Source of the DNA: Thiomicrospira pelophila DSM 1534
GTDB taxonomy: Bacteria; Pseudomonadota; Gammaproteobacteria; Thiomicrospirales; Thiomicrospiraceae
NCBI RefSeq assembly: GCF_000711195.1
Contig: NZ_JOMR01000001.1
Location: 1 to 64,000, forward strand
DNA: 64,000 nt
Direction: 5' to 3'
Shown: positions 44,593 through 57,013 of the stretch, piece after piece
Position numbering within the stretch: position 1 is the first letter of the stretch
Layout of the letters: every line of letters starts with the position of its first letter
Notes under the pieces: generated by a model
Databases searched by the model: none
Seen by the model: the letters and a program-made list of their open reading frames with translations, nothing else
Told to the model about the DNA's origin: nothing
Translations under genes and position numbers: made by a program

Positions 44593-46590
<1,998 letters not shown>

Positions 46591-46593
46591 GTT

Positions 46594-47658
46594 ATGAAGC
46601 TAGACGGTTTAAAAACCGTTGGCATCGCCGGTGCAGGCCTGGTCGGTCGCGTGCTGGCGTTGAATTTAATTCAGCGCGGGATTCAGGTCACGCTGTATGA
46701 AAAAGATGCGTCAGATGCCACACCTAATGCCGCTGGTTATACCGCGGCTGGCATGCTCGCGCCTTATGCTGAATTGGAGTTAATGGATGCCGAGTTATTT
46801 AAACTCGGTACACGTTCGATTGCACTTTGGCCAGGCCTGCTTGCTTGGATGGCGCAACAAGGTTATGCGGTCGATTTTCAACACCGTGGCAGCTTGATTT
46901 TGGCGCATCATAATGACCGTGCCGATCTGCAGCATTTTATGCGGCAACTGCTGGATAAAATGCCCGCCGGCCATCAAAACAGCCAAGTCGAACCGCTAAA
47001 CAACGCACGCATTAGCGAACTTGAACCAGAACTGACACATCATCACCAGGCTTGGTGGTTGCCTAACGAAGGCCAGGTAGACTCCACCCAGTTTTTTGCG
47101 CAAAGCGAACGCCTGCTAAAAAACCATCCGCTAGTCGAATGGCGCGTAAGTACTGAGGCAAAAGAAGTTGAAGCTCACGTTGTTCATTGTTGCAAACAGC
47201 AAGATTATTATGACTGGGTATTTGATTGTCGTGGCTTAGGTGCGAAAGCGGCGTTAAAAGATTTACGCGGCGTACGTGGTGAAGTGCTTTGGCTGGATGC
47301 ACCCGAGGTGAACCTCACGCGGCCAGTACGCTTAATGCACCCACGTTATCGCATTTATATTGTGCCGCGCGCCAATGGACGCTATATCATCGGCGCGAGT
47401 GAAATCGAAAGCGAAGACCGCAGTCCGATGTCGGTGCGCTCGAGCTTGGAATTACTCTCTGCCGCCTATAGCGTGCACCCTGGTTTTGCTGAGGCACGCA
47501 TTGTCAATCAACTCACCAATTGCCGTCCGGCGCTGGGCGACAATTTACCGCGCATTGAGCAACTTGAGGGGTTAACGCGCATTAACGGGCTCTACCGCCA
47601 CGGTTATTTATTCTCCCCTGCGATGATTGAAAAGGCACTGGCTGAATTAAAGAATTAG
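46594..47658 (+). CDS. thiO: Glycine oxidase ThiO (FAD-dependent)
   Basis: 354 residues. An FAD-binding start GIAGAGLVGRVLALNLIQRG, then AAGYTAAGMLAPYAELE, LVEWRVSTEA, VFDCRGLGAKAALKDLRGVRGE and a C-terminal YRHGYLFSPAMIEKAL define the DAO-type glycine oxidase. It makes dehydroglycine for the thiazole ring and needs O2, so this is the aerobic route. It starts 3 bp after thiC. Confidence 0.92.
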   Translation: MKLDGLKTVGIAGAGLVGRVLALNLIQRGIQVTLYEKDASDATPNAAGYTAAGMLAPYAELELMDAELFKLGTRSIALWPGLLAWMAQQGYAVDFQHRGSLILAHHNDRADLQHFMRQLLDKMPAGHQNSQVEPLNNARISELEPELTHHHQAWWLPNEGQVDSTQFFAQSERLLKNHPLVEWRVSTEAKEVEAHVVHCCKQQDYYDWVFDCRGLGAKAALKDLRGVRGEVLWLDAPEVNLTRPVRLMHPRYRIYIVPRANGRYIIGASEIESEDRSPMSVRSSLELLSAAYSVHPGFAEARIVNQLTNCRPALGDNLPRIEQLEGLTRINGLYRHGYLFSPAMIEKALAELKN

Positions 47659-47677
47659 TCGAACCACAAGGTGAAAC

Positions 47678-47872
47678 ATGATTTTATTGATTAACGACAA
47701 ACCAACAGAAAGCAATGCTCAAACCTTAGCCAGCCTGGTGCTTGAGTTGGAAATTGAAGGCGCATTTGCGTTAGCACTGAATGAAAACTTTGTGCCCAAA
47801 AGCCAATACGCTGACACGTTTGTAAATGAAAACGACCGCATAGAAATCGTCGCCCCCATGCAAGGCGGCTGA
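47678..47872 (+). CDS. thiS: Sulfur carrier protein ThiS
   Basis: 64 residues, ubiquitin-like, with the C-terminal Gly-Gly (IVAPMQGG) that is thiocarboxylated. It begins MILLINDKPTE with ALALNENFVPKSQY. Sulfur donor to ThiG. Confidence 0.93.
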   Translation: MILLINDKPTESNAQTLASLVLELEIEGAFALALNENFVPKSQYADTFVNENDRIEIVAPMQGG

Positions 47873-47897
47873 TTTGGTTTTAAACACAGTATACAAA

Positions 47898-47987
47898 GTA
47901 GGTCAGATTAGGCTGCAAGCCGTAATCTGACAATCATGCGTCAAGAGCATGTTGGATTACGGTCTTCGACCTAATCCAACCTACAAA
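47898..47987. repeat. Pair of inverted REP-like elements (BIME-like) between thiS and thiG
   Basis: Element 1 (47898-47931) begins GTAG and folds as GTCAGATTA-GGC...GCC-TAATCTGAC. Element 2 (47951-47987) is the same type in opposite orientation, GTTGGATTACGGT...ACCTAATCCAAC, ending CTAC. GTAG heads at both outer ends are the hallmark of REP pairs spread by RAYT transposases. No RAYT gene is in the window. Confidence 0.75.
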
Positions 47988-48037
47988 TATCCTGTGCCTT
48001 CGTGTCTCTTTGCTGAATAAAAATACAGGAAATGAAT

Positions 48038-48835
48038 ATGACAACTCACAACCAGGCCTGGTCATTGGCAGATACTTTATTGCAAAGCCGTTTGTTAATC
48101 GGTTCAGCGCTTTATCCGTCACCCGAGATTATGCGCCAGGCGATTCAAGCCAGTGAAAGCCAAGTGGTCACCGTGTCGATTCGTCGGCAGAATATAGGTG
48201 ACCAAAGTGGACAGGCGTTTTGGCAAATTATTCAATCACTCGGTTGTCACATTCTACCCAATACCGCTGGTTGCCGAACGGCTCAAGAATCGATTACCAC
48301 CGCGCAGATGGCACGTGAAATTTTTGGTACCAACTGGGTTAAACTCGAAGTGATCGGTGATGACTACACCCTGCAACCCGATCCATTTGATTTGGTCAAA
48401 GCCGCGCAGGTATTAATTGAGGACGGCTTTGAAGTCTTCCCTTATGCGAGTGATGATCTCGTTTTGTGTCAACGTTTAGTTGATGTCGGTTGCCGTATCG
48501 TCATGCCTTGGGCATCACCGATTGGTTCGGGCAAAGGCATTATGAATCCCTATAATATGGAATTGATTCGCCAACGTCTGCCCGATACCACTCTGATTGT
48601 CGATGCGGGCATCGGCAAACCATCCCACGCAGCTCAAGCTTTGGAAATGGGTTTTGATGGGGTGTTGCTTAATTCCGCGGTGGCTTTGGCCGATGATCCA
48701 ATCAATATGGCGAGCGCCTTCAAGCTCGCCATCGAAGCCGGACGCTTAGGCTACAACTCAGGCACCATGCCACAACGCGAATTCGCTACGCCTTCCACCC
48801 CGGTTTTAGGTACCCCGTTTTGGCATCAGGGTTAA
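48038..48835 (+). CDS. thiG: Thiazole synthase
   Basis: About 265 residues from ATG 48038, with AGGA 8 bases before; ATG 48032 is an alternative. [50 protein letters not shown] (Schiff-base lysine region) and [17 protein letters not shown] mark ThiG. It builds thiazole phosphate from DXP, dehydroglycine and ThiS-COSH. Codons 7-9 are the CCAGGCCTGG palindrome (QAW) at 48052. thiE is not adjacent. Confidence 0.93.
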
Positions 48836-50103: not shown

Positions 50104-50142
50104 CATTAGTCTGCATATCATCTAATGAAAAAGGACGTTTTT

Positions 50143-51606
50143 ATGGAATTCATTAGCTTATTTCCAACTTGGTTCGAACCAATGGTGGGATCAGGCTGGG
50201 TGGTTGGTTTTATTGCGACCTTCCATGTACTGGCCTCTCATACATCGGTAGGCGCGGCTTTGTTGTTCGCTTACTTATCCTACCGAGCCTACAAAGAAGA
50301 TAACGATGACTATCTAGACTTTGTTAAGAAGTATGGATTGTTTTTATTGGTGTTCACCTATGTCGCCGGCTCCTTAACTGGGGTGGGGATTTGGTATTCA
50401 ACCACGGTCGCCAGCCCGAATGGTATCGGCGCTTTGATCCACTCCTTTGTTTGGAAGTGGGCAACCGAATGGGTGTTCTTCGTGATCGAGGTGGTCGGGA
50501 TTTATATGATCGTTTACCTAGTCGGCAAGGTTGATAAGAAGACCCACATGAAAATCTCGGTGATTTTCGGTATTTCTTCGTTCGCGACCATGGTGATTAT
50601 CATCGGTATCTTGTCTTTCATGATGGTGCCGGGTAAAGAGGCTTGGTTTGAAGAAGGCGGCTATTTGCTTGGTTTCTATGGTGACAATACCTTTGTGCAA
50701 TTGGGTATGCGCATGACCTTTATGATGACTATGACCGCGATTGTTGGTGGCATAGTGGTTGCCAGCATTACCAACCCAGCGTTCAAAAAAGAAATGGCGC
50801 GCAAGCTCGGTTGGTTAGGGATTATCGCCACCTTGATCGGCGCAGGGTTATTCCAGGTTTATTTAAAAACCGTACCGGAGTCGGCTTTATTGGTGATGGA
50901 AAACCGTCTGCCAGATTATTTCGGTCCCAGCATTATGATCGTGTTAGCGATGACCTTGGCTTATTTCATTGTCACCATGTGGAAACCGCGTTTATTGGTG
51001 GCTGGCTTTGCCGGCTCGATGGCGGTGATTTTATTGGTGGCCGGTTTATGGCCGGAAGAAACCGCGCGTGAATCTATGCGTAAACCTTGGGTAGCGGGTC
51101 AATATGTTTACTCCAACCAAGTCATTGGTCGGGATGTGCCGGGTATGGGGATCGAGTCACAATTACCCCACCTTGAAAAGCACGGCATCTTGAAGTCTCA
51201 CCCTATGACGCCTGCGCATCTGCGCGAAGTAAATGACGGCAATATTATTCAAGCGGGTGAATTTATCACTATGACCTATTGCTCGAACTGTCATTCACCT
51301 AGCGAAACTGGGATTCGACCATTACATCGTTATTTCCCTGAAGGCGTGACACAAGAGGTCATGGCACGTTATATCCGCGGTGCAATTATGCCTGGACATA
51401 TCGCTTACATGCCAAAAATGCCTATGATCGACTCTGAAATCGAAGCGTTATCGGCCTATTTAGTGATGAATAACGAAAGCGGTCAAGCGGCGACACAAGT
51501 GGCGATTGAACAAGAAATAGCAAATCGTGAAGCAAGCAAGCTGGCTGATCAGGCACTAGGCCTGGTAGTGAGCTTGAATGAGTCGGCTAAACAGGAGGTT
51601 CAATAA
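50143..51606 (+). CDS. Cytochrome bd subunit I-like membrane protein with fused C-terminal cytochrome c domain
   Basis: 487 residues from ATG 50143, served by AAGGACG; ATG 50125 overlaps that site. About eight or nine helices lie in residues 15-305. FIATFHVLASHTSVGAAL recalls the first helix of CydA with its haem ligand His (here His28, His33). GSLTGVGIWYSTTVASPNGI and ATEWVFFVIEVVGIYM (Glu109, Glu116) recall the next CydA helices. No quinol-binding Q-loop was recognised. After residue 305 a periplasmic cytochrome c domain has CSNCH at 380-384, with PGHIAYMPKMP supplying a likely Met ligand. First gene of a six-gene unit. Exact family uncertain. Confidence 0.65.
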   Translation: MEFISLFPTWFEPMVGSGWVVGFIATFHVLASHTSVGAALLFAYLSYRAYKEDNDDYLDFVKKYGLFLLVFTYVAGSLTGVGIWYSTTVASPNGIGALIHSFVWKWATEWVFFVIEVVGIYMIVYLVGKVDKKTHMKISVIFGISSFATMVIIIGILSFMMVPGKEAWFEEGGYLLGFYGDNTFVQLGMRMTFMMTMTAIVGGIVVASITNPAFKKEMARKLGWLGIIATLIGAGLFQVYLKTVPESALLVMENRLPDYFGPSIMIVLAMTLAYFIVTMWKPRLLVAGFAGSMAVILLVAGLWPEETARESMRKPWVAGQYVYSNQVIGRDVPGMGIESQLPHLEKHGILKSHPMTPAHLREVNDGNIIQAGEFITMTYCSNCHSPSETGIRPLHRYFPEGVTQEVMARYIRGAIMPGHIAYMPKMPMIDSEIEALSAYLVMNNESGQAATQVAIEQEIANREASKLADQALGLVVSLNESAKQEVQ

Positions 51607-52844
51607 TGGAAGCCATGCAATTGACCGAAATGATGTACGCCATGCGCAACCCCGCAGGCGTACCTTTCTACCCAATTGTGTTTGTCGCATTGGGTGTATT
51701 GACCTTTGCACTGCATATTTTCTTTGTACAACTAATGCTGGGTACCGCCACGCTCACTGCGTTTGGTGCCTTCAGTAAGCAAGATAACTGGCGCCGCTTA
51801 GCCAGCGCTATGTTGGAAGTGGCGAAAGTATCGGTATCGGTTGCGATCGTCATCGGGGTCGCCCCGCTGCTATTTGTACAGGTGGTATATGACCCACAAT
51901 GGTATACCTCCAATGTGCTTTCAGCTGACTGGGTGATTGCGTTTATCGTGATTATGATTGCCGGTTACTGGTCGATGTATTACTACTATTTTAAAAATGG
52001 TAAATACGGCCAAAATGCGGGCTCTCCTAAAGCACGCTGGTCGATCTTAGCGAGTTTAGTGATCTTCTTATTCGCTGGTTGGATTATGCATAGCTTGACC
52101 TCGCAAATGTTACATCCTGAACTATGGCAAGAGTGGTATGCACCAGGCGGCATGATGGATTACAGCGGTTCACAACTGCATGCCAATAACCCTTGGCGTT
52201 ATGCCTTCTTTATTTTGCTAGGCATTCCAGCCGCAGGTGCGATGTTGGTGGCTTATCGTCGCTTCAAGTCGGTTCGTACTGATATGGATCAAGACTACTT
52301 GAACTGGGCAGGTGAGCTTGGCAAGAAATGGATAAAAATCGGTTCTTTAGTGGTGATCGTGCCTTATATCGGCTGGATGGCGACCGTACAAGAATCCGCC
52401 GCAGGGTTTGGCCTAACCATTTGGGGTTTATTACCGATTGTCGCCTTAATTGGTGTTGCGGCATGGGCTCAGCTTCGTTTAAAAGAAAGTCAATCACTTT
52501 GCAATTACATGGCATTAGGCGTGGTGTTTGTCGCGGTATTAGTCGCGTCTATCGGACGTGAAGTATTGCGTTACGACATCTTAAACGGTGCATTTGGTTA
52601 TGACTTTTTTGACTATAAAGTCACGATGGATTGGTATTCAACCGCCCTATTCTTTGGCACCTTTGCGGTCGTTGGTGGCGCTATTTTGGCCTACTTCTTG
52701 ACGATTGCTTGGAAGGTTGGCCAAAGCCAAGGTGTCTATACCCCAAGTAAAGCCGTTGATCGTATGGGAACCATCGCAATTTGGATTGTCAGTCTTTGGA
52801 TGATTCACTTCTTCGCCATCGGTTTCTGGATCTGGGCTCAATAG
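51606..52844 (+). CDS. Second polytopic membrane subunit, bd subunit I-like
   Basis: 412 residues with about nine helices. It starts on the last base of the previous stop (TAATG), so the two are made together. Its first helix, FVALGVLTFALHIFFVQLMLGTATL, resembles that of the upstream subunit, with a His at a like position. The two may be paralogous halves of a heterodimer. WIMHSLTSQMLHPELWQEWY and IGREVLRYDIL are other notable stretches. No cytochrome c motif. Family not certain; distant relation to cytochrome bd subunits is inferred. Confidence 0.6.
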   Translation: MEAMQLTEMMYAMRNPAGVPFYPIVFVALGVLTFALHIFFVQLMLGTATLTAFGAFSKQDNWRRLASAMLEVAKVSVSVAIVIGVAPLLFVQVVYDPQWYTSNVLSADWVIAFIVIMIAGYWSMYYYYFKNGKYGQNAGSPKARWSILASLVIFLFAGWIMHSLTSQMLHPELWQEWYAPGGMMDYSGSQLHANNPWRYAFFILLGIPAAGAMLVAYRRFKSVRTDMDQDYLNWAGELGKKWIKIGSLVVIVPYIGWMATVQESAAGFGLTIWGLLPIVALIGVAAWAQLRLKESQSLCNYMALGVVFVAVLVASIGREVLRYDILNGAFGYDFFDYKVTMDWYSTALFFGTFAVVGGAILAYFLTIAWKVGQSQGVYTPSKAVDRMGTIAIWIVSLWMIHFFAIGFWIWAQ

Positions 52845-52862
52845 GATTGGAGAAATATAACT

Positions 52863-53267
52863 ATGAAAAAACAACTCATCAGCTTAGCGGTTTTGGCCTG
52901 TGTTTCGTTACCAGGTCTGGCGGCTAAAGCTAAATTAACCGATGATCAAATCAATCAGATCAACCAACAATATCCAATGCCAAGCGGCAAAATGTTGGCG
53001 GATAATTGTTCGGCTTGTCACGGCACCATGGGCGCCGAGTTCAGCGAAGGCATGCCACCTTTAGCAGGTATGGATCGCGATGATTTTATTAAATTAATGA
53101 AAGCATTTCGTGCCAACGAATTCCCCACCGTGGTGATGCACGATGTCGCGTATGTATACAACGATAAAGAAATCGAAGCTATGGCGGATTATTTTGCGGC
53201 ACAACCGGCCCAACAATGGCCGCATTTAAATGCAGACGGCACAGTAAAACAAGGAGTGAAACCATGA
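52863..53267 (+). CDS. Monoheme c-type cytochrome (periplasmic)
   Basis: 134 residues with a signal peptide (MKKQLISLAVLACVSLPGLA). One haem site CSACH is at 49-53. A distal methionine is likely in GMPPLAGM. FIKLMKAFRANEFPTVVMHDVAYVYNDKEIEAMADYFAAQ resembles the haem domains of FccA and cytochrome c4-type subunits. Its TGA overlaps the ATG of fccB (ATGA). It probably passes electrons between FccB and the membrane subunits. Confidence 0.85.
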   Translation: MKKQLISLAVLACVSLPGLAAKAKLTDDQINQINQQYPMPSGKMLADNCSACHGTMGAEFSEGMPPLAGMDRDDFIKLMKAFRANEFPTVVMHDVAYVYNDKEIEAMADYFAAQPAQQWPHLNADGTVKQGVKP

Positions 53268-54559
53268 GCTCTTTAACGAGAAGACAATTAATTAAATACC
53301 TAGGCGCGTCCGCTGTTGCCGGTTCAGGCTTGTTTGGTTTCAACAACCAGGCCTGGTCGAATAAATCGGCTCATATCGTCATCGTAGGTGGTGGTATTGG
53401 TGGCGCGGCTTTGGCAAAATATCTACGTATTGCGGACGGCAGCGTACGCATTACCATGATTGAACCTAACCCGGAATACACCTTCTGCCCTGGCAGTAAC
53501 GAAGTGTTTAATGGTCACGAAACCTTAGACAATCTAACCTATAACTACGACACGTTTAAAACCCGTTTTGGGGTCAACATGATCCAAGATAAGGCAGTCG
53601 CGATTGATTACGACAAGCATCGTGTTCGTGTTAGTTCAGGCGATTGGGTGAGCTACGACAAATTAGTGGTATCAACTGGCCCGGACTTTATGTATGACGC
53701 GGTGGAAGGTTACAGCGCGCAGTTGGCCGCTACCGATTTACCACACGCTTGGAAGGCTGGTCCGCAAACAGCCAAACTAAAACAACAGCTTGATTCTATG
53801 CGCCAAGGCGGCACGGTGGTTATTTCTTCACCCGATGGCGCTTATCGCTGCCCGCCCGCACCTTATGAGCGTGCTTCGATGATCGCCGAACAACTTGAAA
53901 AGGTAAACCCCACCGCCAAAATTTTAATTTTGGATTCCAAAAACGGTTTCACTTTTGACAAACACTATTGGCATTACTGGACAGAGCGTCACGGATATGG
54001 CACCGATAACGCTCGTATTAGCTGGATCAGTGAACAAGAAGGTGGTCGTGCGGTCAAAGTCGATGCTAAAAATAAAGTGATCACCACGGCCAATGATGAA
54101 AAGGTAAAAGCGGACGTGATTAATATCATTCCACCGCATAAAGCCTCTAAGTTTGCAATGGATACGGGATTAGCTAAGGGTCAACGTTGGGTGCCTTTTG
54201 ACACTAAAACCTTTGCCTCGGATGTTCATCCTGACGTATTTGTGATCGGTGACATGGTGGATGCCCCTATGTCGAAAACCGGCTACATCGCCAGCAACCA
54301 AGCCAAAGTAGTGGCACAAGCGATTGTGGATCAGTTAGAGGGTCGTGAACCAGGTACGCCGTTTATCACTAACAACTGTGTCGCGATTATTTCGGAAGAA
54401 TACGGTATGAGCATTGCCGATACCCACCGTTTCGGCGGCGATACTTACCTGCTGCAAAAACGACTTTCCAAAGTCACCGACAATCCTTACGAACGTCGCA
54501 TTCGCGCCGAACTGGCGAAGAATTGGCAACGTACCTTCCGTAAAGATATTTTCAGCTGA
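53264..54559 (+). CDS. fccB: Flavocytochrome c sulfide dehydrogenase, flavoprotein subunit
   Basis: 431 residues from ATG 53264. A twin-arginine signal (LTRRQLIKYLGASAVAGSG) shows export in folded form. The FAD fold is IVIVGGGIGGAALAKYLR. Cys75 (YTFCPGSNEVFNG) matches the cysteine that binds FAD covalently in Allochromatium FccB (Cys42 there). Cys196 (YRCPPAPYERASMI) and Cys372 (TNNCVAIIS) match the redox-active pair (Cys161, Cys337). VHPDVFVIGDM is the second FAD block. It oxidises sulfide and hands electrons to the cytochrome subunit. A CCAGGCCTGG at 53347 encodes QAW at the signal cleavage region. Confidence 0.92.
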   Translation: MSSLTRRQLIKYLGASAVAGSGLFGFNNQAWSNKSAHIVIVGGGIGGAALAKYLRIADGSVRITMIEPNPEYTFCPGSNEVFNGHETLDNLTYNYDTFKTRFGVNMIQDKAVAIDYDKHRVRVSSGDWVSYDKLVVSTGPDFMYDAVEGYSAQLAATDLPHAWKAGPQTAKLKQQLDSMRQGGTVVISSPDGAYRCPPAPYERASMIAEQLEKVNPTAKILILDSKNGFTFDKHYWHYWTERHGYGTDNARISWISEQEGGRAVKVDAKNKVITTANDEKVKADVINIIPPHKASKFAMDTGLAKGQRWVPFDTKTFASDVHPDVFVIGDMVDAPMSKTGYIASNQAKVVAQAIVDQLEGREPGTPFITNNCVAIISEEYGMSIADTHRFGGDTYLLQKRLSKVTDNPYERRIRAELAKNWQRTFRKDIFS

Positions 54560-54576
54560 GTGACAAGGAGAGCAAT

Positions 54577-55278
54577 ATGAAAAAACAATTATTTGTCGCT
54601 CTATTCAGTGCTGGGACATTTATGACCGGTTCGGCGATGGCAGCGGATCATGCCCCAAAGGCTGAGCCTTGGACACCCATGCAATGGAGTAAGACATTAG
54701 AGAAAATGCCACAAGGTGATATTCAACGTGGTGCCGATTTACATCGTAATGGTTTGTGCATGACCTGCCATGGCGCAAACGGCGTCGCGCCTTCACGCAA
54801 TGCCCCCAGTCTGGCGGCGCAACCGATCGAGTATACCTACAAAACCTTGTTGGATTATAAAAGTGGCTTACGTAACGAAGGCGATGGCAAAGCTAGCTTA
54901 ATGCATGCCGCTACTCAGCCTATGTCTCAACAAGACATGGCCGATTTGGCTGTTTATTATGCCGATCAAAGCCTTCCTCCACGTGCGGAAGCCAAGCAAA
55001 TTGACCCGGCTATTGATCGATTAACACGCAAAGGTGATATGTCTCGCATGATTGTCGCTTGTGCGTCTTGTCATGGGGCTAAAGGGGAAGGCAACGGCGT
55101 TACCCCAGCCTTAGCGGGTCAAACGCCTGAATATTTTGTGCGTACGATGCAAGCATACAAAAACAAACTGCGTACCAATGACCTTAATGAAGGTATGGCG
55201 CAATTCACTTATAATCTAACCGATGCCGAAATTGATGCCTTGGCGGATTATTACGCCAGCTTTGGCAAAGGAGAGTGA
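54577..55278 (+). CDS. fccA: Diheme cytochrome c, FccA/c4-like subunit
   Basis: 233 residues with a signal peptide cut near SAMAAD. Two haem sites, CMTCH (61-65) and CASCH (162-166), each start a similar domain (GANGVAPSRNAPSLA and GAKGEGNGVTPALAG). It pairs with FccB as the cytochrome of flavocytochrome c, or acts as a c4-type shuttle. The call as FccA rests largely on position. It follows fccB by 17 bp with AAGGAGAG as ribosome site. Confidence 0.8.
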   Translation: MKKQLFVALFSAGTFMTGSAMAADHAPKAEPWTPMQWSKTLEKMPQGDIQRGADLHRNGLCMTCHGANGVAPSRNAPSLAAQPIEYTYKTLLDYKSGLRNEGDGKASLMHAATQPMSQQDMADLAVYYADQSLPPRAEAKQIDPAIDRLTRKGDMSRMIVACASCHGAKGEGNGVTPALAGQTPEYFVRTMQAYKNKLRTNDLNEGMAQFTYNLTDAEIDALADYYASFGKGE

Positions 55279-55279
55279 T

Positions 55280-55378
55280 ATGACAGGAATGAAAGCCATC
55301 ATTTGGGGAATTATCCTCACCTTTGGCTCAATCGCCTTAATTTGGCTATTGAGTTTATTAACTGTCGTATCGGTTTAA
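55280..55378 (+). CDS. 32-residue single-helix membrane peptide at the end of the Fcc/bd-like operon
   Basis: ATG at 55280 has GGAGAG 4 bases before it and begins one base after the fccA stop. The product starts MTGMKAIIWG and continues as one hydrophobic helix, IILTFGSIALIWLLSLLTVV, ending SV. A terminator follows 22 bp on. Size and position recall CydX/CcoQ-type small subunits of terminal oxidases. No homology can be claimed by eye. Confidence 0.6.
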   Translation: MTGMKAIIWGIILTFGSIALIWLLSLLTVVSV

Positions 55379-55400: not shown

Positions 55401-55422
55401 GCCCGCTTTAGCGGGCTTTTTT
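55401..55422 (+). terminator. Rho-independent terminator of the Fcc/bd-like operon
   Basis: GCCCGC-TTTA-GCGGGC followed by six T. It marks the end of the six-gene unit. Confidence 0.85.
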
Positions 55423-55538: not shown

Positions 55539-56216
55539 ATGAAAATCGTTCATATCAGTGACACCCACGGCCTCCATCGTCAAATCGACTTTGCTCATGT
55601 TGAGGCGGATGTGTTGGTGCATTCAGGCGATTTTTTAACCGAGCTTCGTGATAGCGGTTACAAACAATATGAGTTTGAAGCTTTTATTAAGTGGCTGGCG
55701 GCGTTGCCTTTTAAACATAAAATTTTAGTCGCGGGCAATCATGACTGGTTCTGTTATGAATGTCTAACTCAAACCGTCGACTTAAAAACATACTTGCTGG
55801 ATGAGTTTGGAATTCATTATTTAGAAGATGATGAAGTTGTCATTAACCAAGTCAAATTCTATGGCTCTCCTTGGCAGCCAGAGTTTATGAACTGGGCATT
55901 TAACTTACCTATCAATGGCCCTGAAATAACCGAAAAATGGCAACAAATCCCCCAAGATACCGATGTACTCATCACGCATGGCCCTGCGTTTGGTCACTTG
56001 GATTTGGGTCGTCCTCAAGCGCGTCCGCTGGGCTGTGAACGTTTACGCGAAACTCTAGATCAACACCCAAACATTAAGCTGCACTTGTTCGGTCATATTC
56101 ATGAAAGCTATGGCTATAAACAGTTTAATGGCGTACATTTTTATAACAGTGCCTATGTTAAACGTGATGAAAATCTACTCGCGTTTCCGCCGATTATTGA
56201 CTTGGCTAAACTATGA
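55539..56216 (+). CDS. Calcineurin-like metallophosphoesterase
   Basis: 225 residues. Metal-site motifs are HISDTHGLHRQ, VHSGDF, VAGNHDWF, LITHGPAFGHLD and LFGHIHESYG. It cuts phosphodiester or phosphomonoester bonds; the substrate is unknown. It overlaps thiD by 4 bp (ATGA). Confidence 0.87.
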   Translation: MKIVHISDTHGLHRQIDFAHVEADVLVHSGDFLTELRDSGYKQYEFEAFIKWLAALPFKHKILVAGNHDWFCYECLTQTVDLKTYLLDEFGIHYLEDDEVVINQVKFYGSPWQPEFMNWAFNLPINGPEITEKWQQIPQDTDVLITHGPAFGHLDLGRPQARPLGCERLRETLDQHPNIKLHLFGHIHESYGYKQFNGVHFYNSAYVKRDENLLAFPPIIDLAKL

Positions 56217-57013
56217 ATCAACCTATCATTCTGACGATTGCTGGTTCGGATACGCTGGCCGGTGCCGGACTGCAAGCTGACTTAAAAACCATTCATGCTT
56301 TAGGCGGGTATGCGGTTACGGTAACCACCGCGATCACCGCGCAAAATTTTGCAGGTGTGCAAGCCGTGTTTCCGTTATCGGCCGCGCAGGTGTCAGCACA
56401 GTTAGATAGCTTATTATTGAATGTTAAAATTGATGCGATCAAAATTGGTCAGCTCGCCAGCGCTGAGATTATTCAGGCGCTTAGCCAATCACTGAAACCT
56501 GCACAATGCCCGATTGTATTGGACCCTGTTTTGGTCAGCTCTAGTGGTCAAGCCTTGTTATCTCCATCGGCCCATTCAACCTTAATTCGCCAGTTGCTTC
56601 CACTTGCACAACTCATCACACCCAATATTCCAGAAGTCAACGCGCTGCTCGGCACGAAATATAAAGGCTTAGCCGATGAAATGAGTGATATTGGCCAGGC
56701 CTTTTTTGCATTAGGTGTGCAGGCGGTCTTAGTGAAAGGCGGCCATAGTTTAGATGACGAGGCGGTCGATTATTTGCTGTACCCCGATCGACCGCCGCAG
56801 GTTTTTTCAGCCCCGCGTCTGACTCACTTAAATGTAAAAGGCACCGGTTGCGCCCTGTCTTCTGCGTTGGCTTTTTATCTTTCACAGGGGGATGATTTAA
56901 TCCATGCCACCGGACATGCGAAAACATTTTTATATCAAAATTTAACGCACGCGCACTATGCAGAGATTTCTCAACCCACCGAATCCGCGCGCCTGATTAA
57001 TCCATTTCTATAA
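56213..57013 (+). CDS. thiD: Hydroxymethylpyrimidine / phosphomethylpyrimidine kinase
   Basis: 266 residues, ribokinase fold. ILTIAGSDTLAGAGLQADLKTIHALGGYA, VTTAITAQNFAGVQ, LDPVLVSSSGQALL and the anion hole NVKGTGCALSSALAFYL define ThiD. It phosphorylates HMP-P to HMP-PP. It is apart from the thiCOSG group and shows no riboswitch. Confidence 0.93.
   Translation: MNQPIILTIAGSDTLAGAGLQADLKTIHALGGYAVTVTTAITAQNFAGVQAVFPLSAAQVSAQLDSLLLNVKIDAIKIGQLASAEIIQALSQSLKPAQCPIVLDPVLVSSSGQALLSPSAHSTLIRQLLPLAQLITPNIPEVNALLGTKYKGLADEMSDIGQAFFALGVQAVLVKGGHSLDDEAVDYLLYPDRPPQVFSAPRLTHLNVKGTGCALSSALAFYLSQGDDLIHATGHAKTFLYQNLTHAHYAEISQPTESARLINPFL

Follow-up and report, generated by a model that had tools for sequence, protein, structure and literature searches.

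The Thiomicrospira pelophila DSM 1534 contig NZ_JOMR01000001.1 carries, on the + strand at positions 50143-55378 of the 64,000-nucleotide stretch analysed here (the window), six close-packed genes for a CydA-like membrane protein with a fused cytochrome c domain (A), a second polytopic membrane protein (B), a monohaem cytochrome c (cyt1), a flavocytochrome c sulfide dehydrogenase flavoprotein (FccB), a dihaem cytochrome c (cyt2) and a 32-codon gene (the peptide). From homology and gene context, we consider it probable that these genes specify a module for electron transfer from sulfide to oxygen, in which electrons from sulfide would pass via flavin adenine dinucleotide (FAD) and then c haems to an O2-reducing site of the cytochrome bd type that contains no copper. 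An earlier sequence-only reading had described six tightly spaced or overlapping genes in this place, and indeed every element was found where it had put it (Table 1). The overlaps between A and B (1 base) and between cyt1 and fccB (4 bases), together with remaining intergenic gaps of <20 bases, suggest a single transcript.

Judged by homology and predicted fold, A is a member of the cytochrome bd superfamily. Its match to Pfam PF01654 (cytochrome bd subunit I) had an E value of 4.6e-5 and a score of 22.6, below the curated cut-off of 26.2, and a comparison of profiles (an alignment of 20 relatives of A and 12 canonical CydA sequences) gave a probability of 92.4 and an E value of 5e-7. When the predicted model was compared with known folds (A and B were modelled as single chains from 20-row alignments), the ten best rows were all bd oxidase chains, with Z scores of 19.4-22.4 over ~300 residues, and complex III-like proteins came next at 17.0. 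The bd-like membrane core that had been proposed is thus borne out by both comparisons. The membrane part comprises ~8 transmembrane helices (residues 18-326) and is followed in the model by a c domain (~367-449) with M423 and with CSNCH at 380-384, where weak cytochrome c Pfam matches were also found (370-441); the fused cytochrome c of the earlier reading is therefore present. With eight helices rather than nine, as modelled, the c domain of A would lie in the periplasm beside FccB.

The profile alignment pairs H28, E116 and H135 of A with H19, E107 and H126 of Escherichia coli CydA, and R309-E310-x-x-R313-K-P315 of A is spaced as E445-x-x-R448-Q-P450 of the E. coli protein, whose residues were checked. 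The pairing of E310 with E445 is based on the motif together with the fold alignment, in which model residue 320 is paired with E. coli residue 458, the profile alignment stopping earlier. We take H19, E99, E107 and E445 of E. coli CydA, as reference titles also have it, to be the ligands and acids of the high-spin haems, with roles in haem binding and proton transfer. H28, E109, E116, R190, E310, R313, P315, C380, C383, H384 and M423 were identical in 98 of 98 A rows linked to FccB, and also in 12 of 12 other rows save for one D replacing E116 (C380, C383, H384 and M423 were kept in all 12); these counts include duplicates, some genomes being represented both by G loci and by named loci (e.g., G001, Thiomicrospira sp. 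ALE5). By this alignment, H28, E116, E310 and R313 of A likely correspond to high-spin haem residues of cytochrome bd. Canonical quinol-oxidising bd enzymes (qOR) carry, in addition, a low-spin haem on H186 and a quinol site with K252, E257 and the Q-loop. None of these features was found in A. Since there is no His in the window's A between residues 136 and 342, and since His reaches at most 21 of 120 rows in any alignment column there, the low-spin haem is left without an evident ligand equivalent to H186; moreover, helices 6 and 7 are joined by a short loop in the model, that is, there is no long Q-loop.

Protein B matched no Pfam family. A comparison of the profiles of B and A, however, gave a probability of 95.9 and an E value of 6e-9 and paired H37 of B with H28 of A and R318-E319-x-x-R322 with R309-E310-x-x-R313, whereas the control comparison of canonical CydA with CydB gave a probability of 1.1 and that of A with CydB 35.8. 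These residues are well kept in B (H37 in 110 of 110 rows, E319 in 108 of 110, R322 in 109 of 110), and from the profiles we conclude that B is a paralogue of A. The label CydB fits worse: the probability against the canonical CydB profile was only 2.4. The model of B is good (predicted local distance difference test [pLDDT], 81.3; predicted template modelling score [pTM], 0.83), and in the fold comparison, which gives one row per PDB entry, CydA was the best chain for nine bd entries (Z, 25.3-27.4) and CydB for one (Z, 21.7), the two folds being alike. The identity of A or B as an NrfD-type or complex III-like protein was also considered and rejected, since chains of these kinds, though among the fold matches, scored lower than the bd oxidases. 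The comparison with CydA, CydB and NrfD that the sequence-only reading had called for thus placed A as CydA-like, while B turned out to be neither NrfD nor a recognisable CydB. A B homologue with a fused cytochrome tail containing two CXXCH motifs, was observed beside an A gene at L229, 6162-7979 (G168); no FccB was seen there.

By sequence comparison, the window's FccB is a genuine flavocytochrome c sulfide dehydrogenase flavoprotein. It aligned with Allochromatium vinosum FccB (1fcd_A) over 359 residues with an E value of 1e-99, matched Pfam PF21706 and PF09242 over their cut-offs, and had C75, C196 and C372 in register with cysteines of the A. vinosum protein, as the earlier reading had maintained. 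C75 is equivalent to the residue that we take to carry the covalent FAD in A. vinosum FccB. This cysteine is retained in the window and in 23 of 24 further unlinked FccB proteins; of the 65 linked FccB rows, 40 have P, G, H or A in its place, for which one change on the tree suffices. The haem partner in the position of FccA is cyt1, kept directly upstream of fccB in 25 of 25 loci of the family. We also examined cyt2 as a candidate FccA, but it matched 1fcd_C with an E value of only 3e-4, compared to 2e-19 for cytochrome c4 (1etp), its nearest match in the PDB. The peptide reads as coding, with a mean proportion of nonsynonymous differences (pN) of 0.18 and of synonymous differences (pS) of 0.72 (190 pairs, 20 sequences), and was kept in 19 of 25 orthologue loci of the family; one copy (L101) was seen by tblastn and lies below the threshold of the peptide scan. 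As a small single helix it is an analogue in kind of CydX. A role as a general subunit was rejected: of 64 named loci, the scan downstream of cyt2 gave a candidate in 17, with a family-type peptide in 15 of these, and a random-position control was positive in 59 of 1580.

The sequence-only reading had staked its proposal on conservation of the linkage in other genomes, and the linkage is conserved. Among 57 related genomes, A was found in 26 (29 matches). Besides the window, all 25 orthologue loci of the family carry A-B-cyt1-FccB-cyt2, and this, together with the coding signature of the peptide, argues that the gene set is not due to chance; three further family loci are paralogous A-B-cytochrome sets without FccB. 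In a scan of species genomes, for which the best 80 of 280 relatives were used (79 named loci), FccB lay on the same strand within 5 kb of A in 68 of 79, downstream in 61 and upstream in 7. In the remaining 11, all near contig ends, FccB was not seen beside A; one of them, L166, has 7.7 kb downstream without FccB. L165, L166 and L170 are probably true exceptions to the linkage and cluster with the unlinked G170. An even sample of the class contained A in 10 of 369 genomes (7 linked, 3 unlinked), compared to FccB-like proteins in 114 of 369. In a sample of the phylum, 3 of 398 genomes contained A. One of these is the window's genome; the two remaining copies are remote, one of them on a contig of just 3.8 kb, and no FccB was seen beside either. 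No relative was found in a scan of viral contigs. By record title, the hosts include Thiomicrospira, Thiomicrorhabdus, Hydrogenovibrio, Halothiobacillus, Thiothrix, Thiocapsa, Thiobacillus, Hydrogenophaga, Rhodoferax, Limnohabitans and Tepidimonas, most of them sulfur oxidisers or their kin.

The trees of both proteins separate the linked forms from the others. In the A tree, from which rows >93% alike had been removed, 62 linked rows stood on one side of a branch and 10 unlinked rows on the other (Shimodaira-Hasegawa-like approximate likelihood ratio test, 95); linkage was scored for 108 of 120 A rows. In the FccB tree (three duplicates and rows >90% alike removed), 65 linked rows formed one group together with three cyt1-FccB-cyt2 trios that lack A-B (L184, L187 and L188, in genomes that also carry the full operon), with a support of 96, or of 100 when five long-branch rows were left out. 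A clade of linked FccB without the three nested trios was rejected (approximately unbiased test, P = 0.00013). When 24 FccB proteins from class genomes were added, with 35 of the 65 linked rows used, the linked lineage was still separate, 52 other rows lying on one side with a support of 99. The linked lineage is therefore set apart from ordinary FccB, including the genome's own second copy. The distances of A and FccB were correlated over 77 loci (Mantel r = 0.67, a value reached in none of 999 permutations), a correlation that includes host kinship. The linked module spans gamma- and betaproteobacteria. The simplest reading of the trees is one joining of the FccB trio to the A-B pair, followed by copying or loss.

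A few loci depart from the common layout. In L102, 4005-13441 (Thiomicrorhabdus heinhorstiae), a second A-B-cyt1-FccB set follows immediately behind the first, and L143 (a Hydrogenophilus metagenome-assembled genome) has cyt1-FccB-cyt2 upstream and FccB-cyt2 downstream of A-B. L171 (Duodenibacillus massiliensis, Sutterellaceae) bears the module, with long branches for both FccB and A. A-B pairs without FccB were seen near methanobactin genes and feoB on a Methylosinus plasmid (L002), near a metal ABC transporter and GTP-binding proteins on a Thermus plasmid (L003), and near Fur, CobW and a TonB receptor (L060); in these three cases, the pairs are possibly copper- or metal-sparing cytochrome c oxidases. 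On the Methylosinus plasmid and on an Agrobacterium plasmid (L004), the A-B genes are followed by those for an ATP-binding protein and a response regulator.

What the computation shows is thus the order of the genes, their homologies, the conservation of residues, a single joining and its long retention; from this we infer O2 as the substrate, the electron path, the haem types, a physical complex, proton coupling and sulfide as the natural donor. FccB and the monohaem cyt1 would oxidise sulfide to zero-valent sulfur in the periplasm, and the electrons would travel from sulfide to FAD, the c haem of cyt1, the haems of cyt2, the c haem of A, the high-spin haems and finally O2. The membrane part of A would provide a copper-free, two-haem high-spin site of the cytochrome bd type that reduces O2, with B as a second core subunit replacing CydB and the 32-residue peptide as a small accessory subunit of one lineage. 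Protons for O2 reduction would be taken from the cytoplasm, and charge would be separated by uptake near E116 (E. coli E107). On such a route, electrons would reach O2 without passing through the quinone pool, the bc1 complex or the cbb3 oxidase, which depends on copper. Since the oxidation of sulfide to sulfur with O2 as the acceptor yields far more energy than needed, electron flow would be downhill. Copper independence and sulfide resistance may be expected of the module by analogy with the bd class. That FccB, cyt1, cyt2 and A-B form one membrane-bound sulfide oxidase complex, with three to four c haems and a copper-free bd-type O2 site, is a more tentative proposal, to which we would give slightly less than an even chance.

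The other redox genes of the genome (2,108,215 bases, one contig) have a bearing on this. A second, ordinary pair of a monohaem cytochrome and FccB lies at ~192.5-193.8 kb. One COX1 match was found, at 2103496 beside cbb3-type cytochrome genes, and cbb3 is the only haem-copper oxidase seen. Besides A, no further PF01654 match was found in the genome, nor was a CydC match over the cut-off. The latter fits a b-haem rather than a d-haem site, without proving it.

Several findings weigh against a sulfide:oxygen module. E109 of A sits one residue away from E. coli E99 in the alignment, and A was modelled with low confidence (pLDDT, 64.6; pTM, 0.55), with values of <50 in the motif region (306-341). 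B gave a probability of only 8.2 against the canonical CydA profile, a weak match confined to the first transmembrane helix. Outside the family, the peptide turned up solely in G092. Furthermore, 10 of 120 A rows were scored as unlinked, including the three paralogues of the same family, so FccB is not required for the function of A-B, and from the trios without A-B it follows that FccB is able to work without A-B. The linkage could reflect mere shared regulation. In a rival explanation, the operon would hold separate machines under one promoter: FccB, cyt1 and cyt2 would feed a soluble cytochrome c pool and the cbb3 oxidase, and A-B would be a general cytochrome c oxidase for low O2, low copper or sulfide stress. 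The A-B pairs without FccB, the trios without A-B and the likeness of cyt2 to cytochrome c4 are in line with this, and PDB entries 8smr and 8snh contain a c4 chain together with cbb3 chains. We nevertheless regard separate machines as rather unlikely, given a single joining kept across gamma- and betaproteobacteria, a separate FccB lineage and a genome that retains an ordinary FccB elsewhere.

The sequence-only reading had named quinone or oxygen as the acceptor, and the evidence favours oxygen over quinone. A-B might instead shuttle electrons between cytochrome c and quinone, by quinone reduction or reverse flow, but the long Q-loop and the His of the low-spin haem are missing and all probable high-spin ligands are retained. 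Both A and B do match complex III-like proteins and membrane subunits of polysulfide reductase, although with lower Z scores (16.5-18.7 and ~14, respectively) than the first-ranked bd oxidases, and reverse flow would be useful to an autotroph; on the other hand, uphill reduction of quinone from c haems requires a drive. We therefore give this explanation little credence, and still less is due to a role in detoxification, that is, the removal of sulfide and the scavenging of O2 or nitric oxide with little gain of energy, or to another sulfur donor such as a persulfide. Stress roles are known for bd enzymes, and the substrate or potential of FccB may have shifted where the covalent-FAD cysteine is replaced, but the window's FccB has all three cysteines and most hosts, by title, oxidise sulfur or are kin to those that do. 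The preferred reading thus remains a module that would carry electrons from sulfide to oxygen.

Within the cytochrome bd superfamily, A very probably belongs to OR-C, a little characterised family that Murali, Gennis and Hemp (ISME J 15:3534) are said to have described in 2021 as having a CydA-like core, no quinol site and a c haem. In A, we likewise find a CydA-like subunit without a quinol site and with a C-terminal c haem, the c haem being a feature of OR-C; the genes for FccB, cyt1, cyt2 and the peptide are additions here. Published work splits the superfamily into qOR, OR-C and OR-N and proposes cytochrome c as the electron donor for the OR-N enzymes (CydAA', Nitrospira, Nitrospinota). 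OR-N CydAA' resembles the module in the proposed donor and, if B is the partner of A, in having two CydA-like paralogues instead of CydA and CydB, but the donor there is thought to come from nitrite oxidation, whereas here sulfide dehydrogenase genes are present and A has its own c domain. FccAB of A. vinosum (1fcd) has a homologous FccB with all three cysteines and a monohaem partner directly upstream; however, it is described as soluble and as passing electrons to small periplasmic cytochromes, whereas the FccB studied here is of a distinct lineage and fixed beside a membrane oxidase. With E. coli CydABX, the module shares the fold of A and B, the high-spin ligand pattern and a small single-helix peptide, but it is without a recognisable CydB, an H186 equivalent and a long Q-loop, has a c haem instead, and comes from a genome with no CydC match over the cut-off.

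Membrane-bound sulfide dehydrogenases have been met before. Visser et al. in 1997 reportedly found, in Thiobacillus sp. W5, a membrane-bound flavocytochrome c made up of a 40-kDa flavoprotein and an 11.2-kDa monohaem subunit, and Kostanjevecki et al. in 2000 are said to have described one from Ectothiorhodospira vacuolata; to our knowledge, no oxidase subunits were reported with either. Halothiobacillus loci in our set carry the module, and we would guess that the W5 enzyme is its FccB-cyt1 part. The Km values given for the W5 enzyme are 1.7 µM for sulfide and 3.8 µM for cytochrome c. In a literature search, no publication was found that unites fcc with a bd-like oxidase, although Murali 2021 or Sousa 2018 may already note the context. 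As far as this search reached, the earlier statement that no named system has this composition thus holds for the whole union; it does not hold for the membrane core, with its very probable place in the published OR-C family. Taken together, the module is real, conserved and specific, and it combines parts of familiar types in an unusual way.

Table 1. Features of the operon in the window
Feature	Position	Strand	Description
A	50143..51606	+	487 aa; CydA-like membrane protein with C-terminal periplasmic-type cytochrome c domain
B	51606..52844	+	Second polytopic protein; predicted CydA-like fold, A paralogue, no c haem
cyt1	52863..53267	+	Secreted monohaem cytochrome c (CSACH) in the FccA position directly before fccB
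FccB	53264..54559	+	Flavocytochrome c sulfide dehydrogenase flavoprotein; Tat-like signal; C75/C196/C372
cyt2	54577..55278	+	Secreted dihaem cytochrome c, two CXXCH; nearest PDB kin cytochrome c4
Peptide	55280..55378	+	32 aa, one transmembrane-like stretch (single-helix membrane peptide)
Terminator-like hairpin and T run	55401..55422	+	Six G-C pairs, hairpin 55401-55416, directly after last gene

The start of A was taken as 50143, which is common to its relatives; the mechanical open reading frame opens at 50125. The terminator scan is by itself weak proof, since 8 such sites were found and 6.8 expected; the site at 55401 is nonetheless all G-C and correctly placed. Promoter-like sites were at chance level in the same scan (10 found, 11.1 expected). 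Upstream of the operon (44611-48835) lie thiC, a thiO-like gene and thiG, and downstream a phosphoesterase gene and a gene for a thiD-like kinase (56213-57013). Since thiamine genes flank it on both sides, the operon is an insertion into a thiamine region and not a piece of a larger sulfur cluster.

Sulfide oxidation and O2 reduction are usually drawn as the ends of a chain linked by quinone or soluble cytochrome c. If the proposal is true, the operon would encode a respiratory chain that is short and has an oxidase of its own, plausibly one that resists sulfide and needs no copper. It would supply a donor and a physiological setting for cytochrome c-linked bd-type oxidases, whose donors have so far mostly been guesses, and give a functional meaning to one branch of OR-C, with the A-B pairs that lack FccB and are more linked to metals as copper-sparing cousins. 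In these genomes, annotators now count "fccB" and a bd-like gene as two unrelated traits. The table of PMC5733100, for instance, lists three Hydrogenovibrio strains with both FCC and CydAB and a fourth with neither; this pattern may be this one operon. As a genomic marker, the FccB lineage can be separated by its tree and, in one large branch, by the lost covalent-flavin cysteine. With such a module, sulfur oxidisers could keep up respiration in places where copper is bound by sulfide and haem-copper oxidases are inhibited by it.

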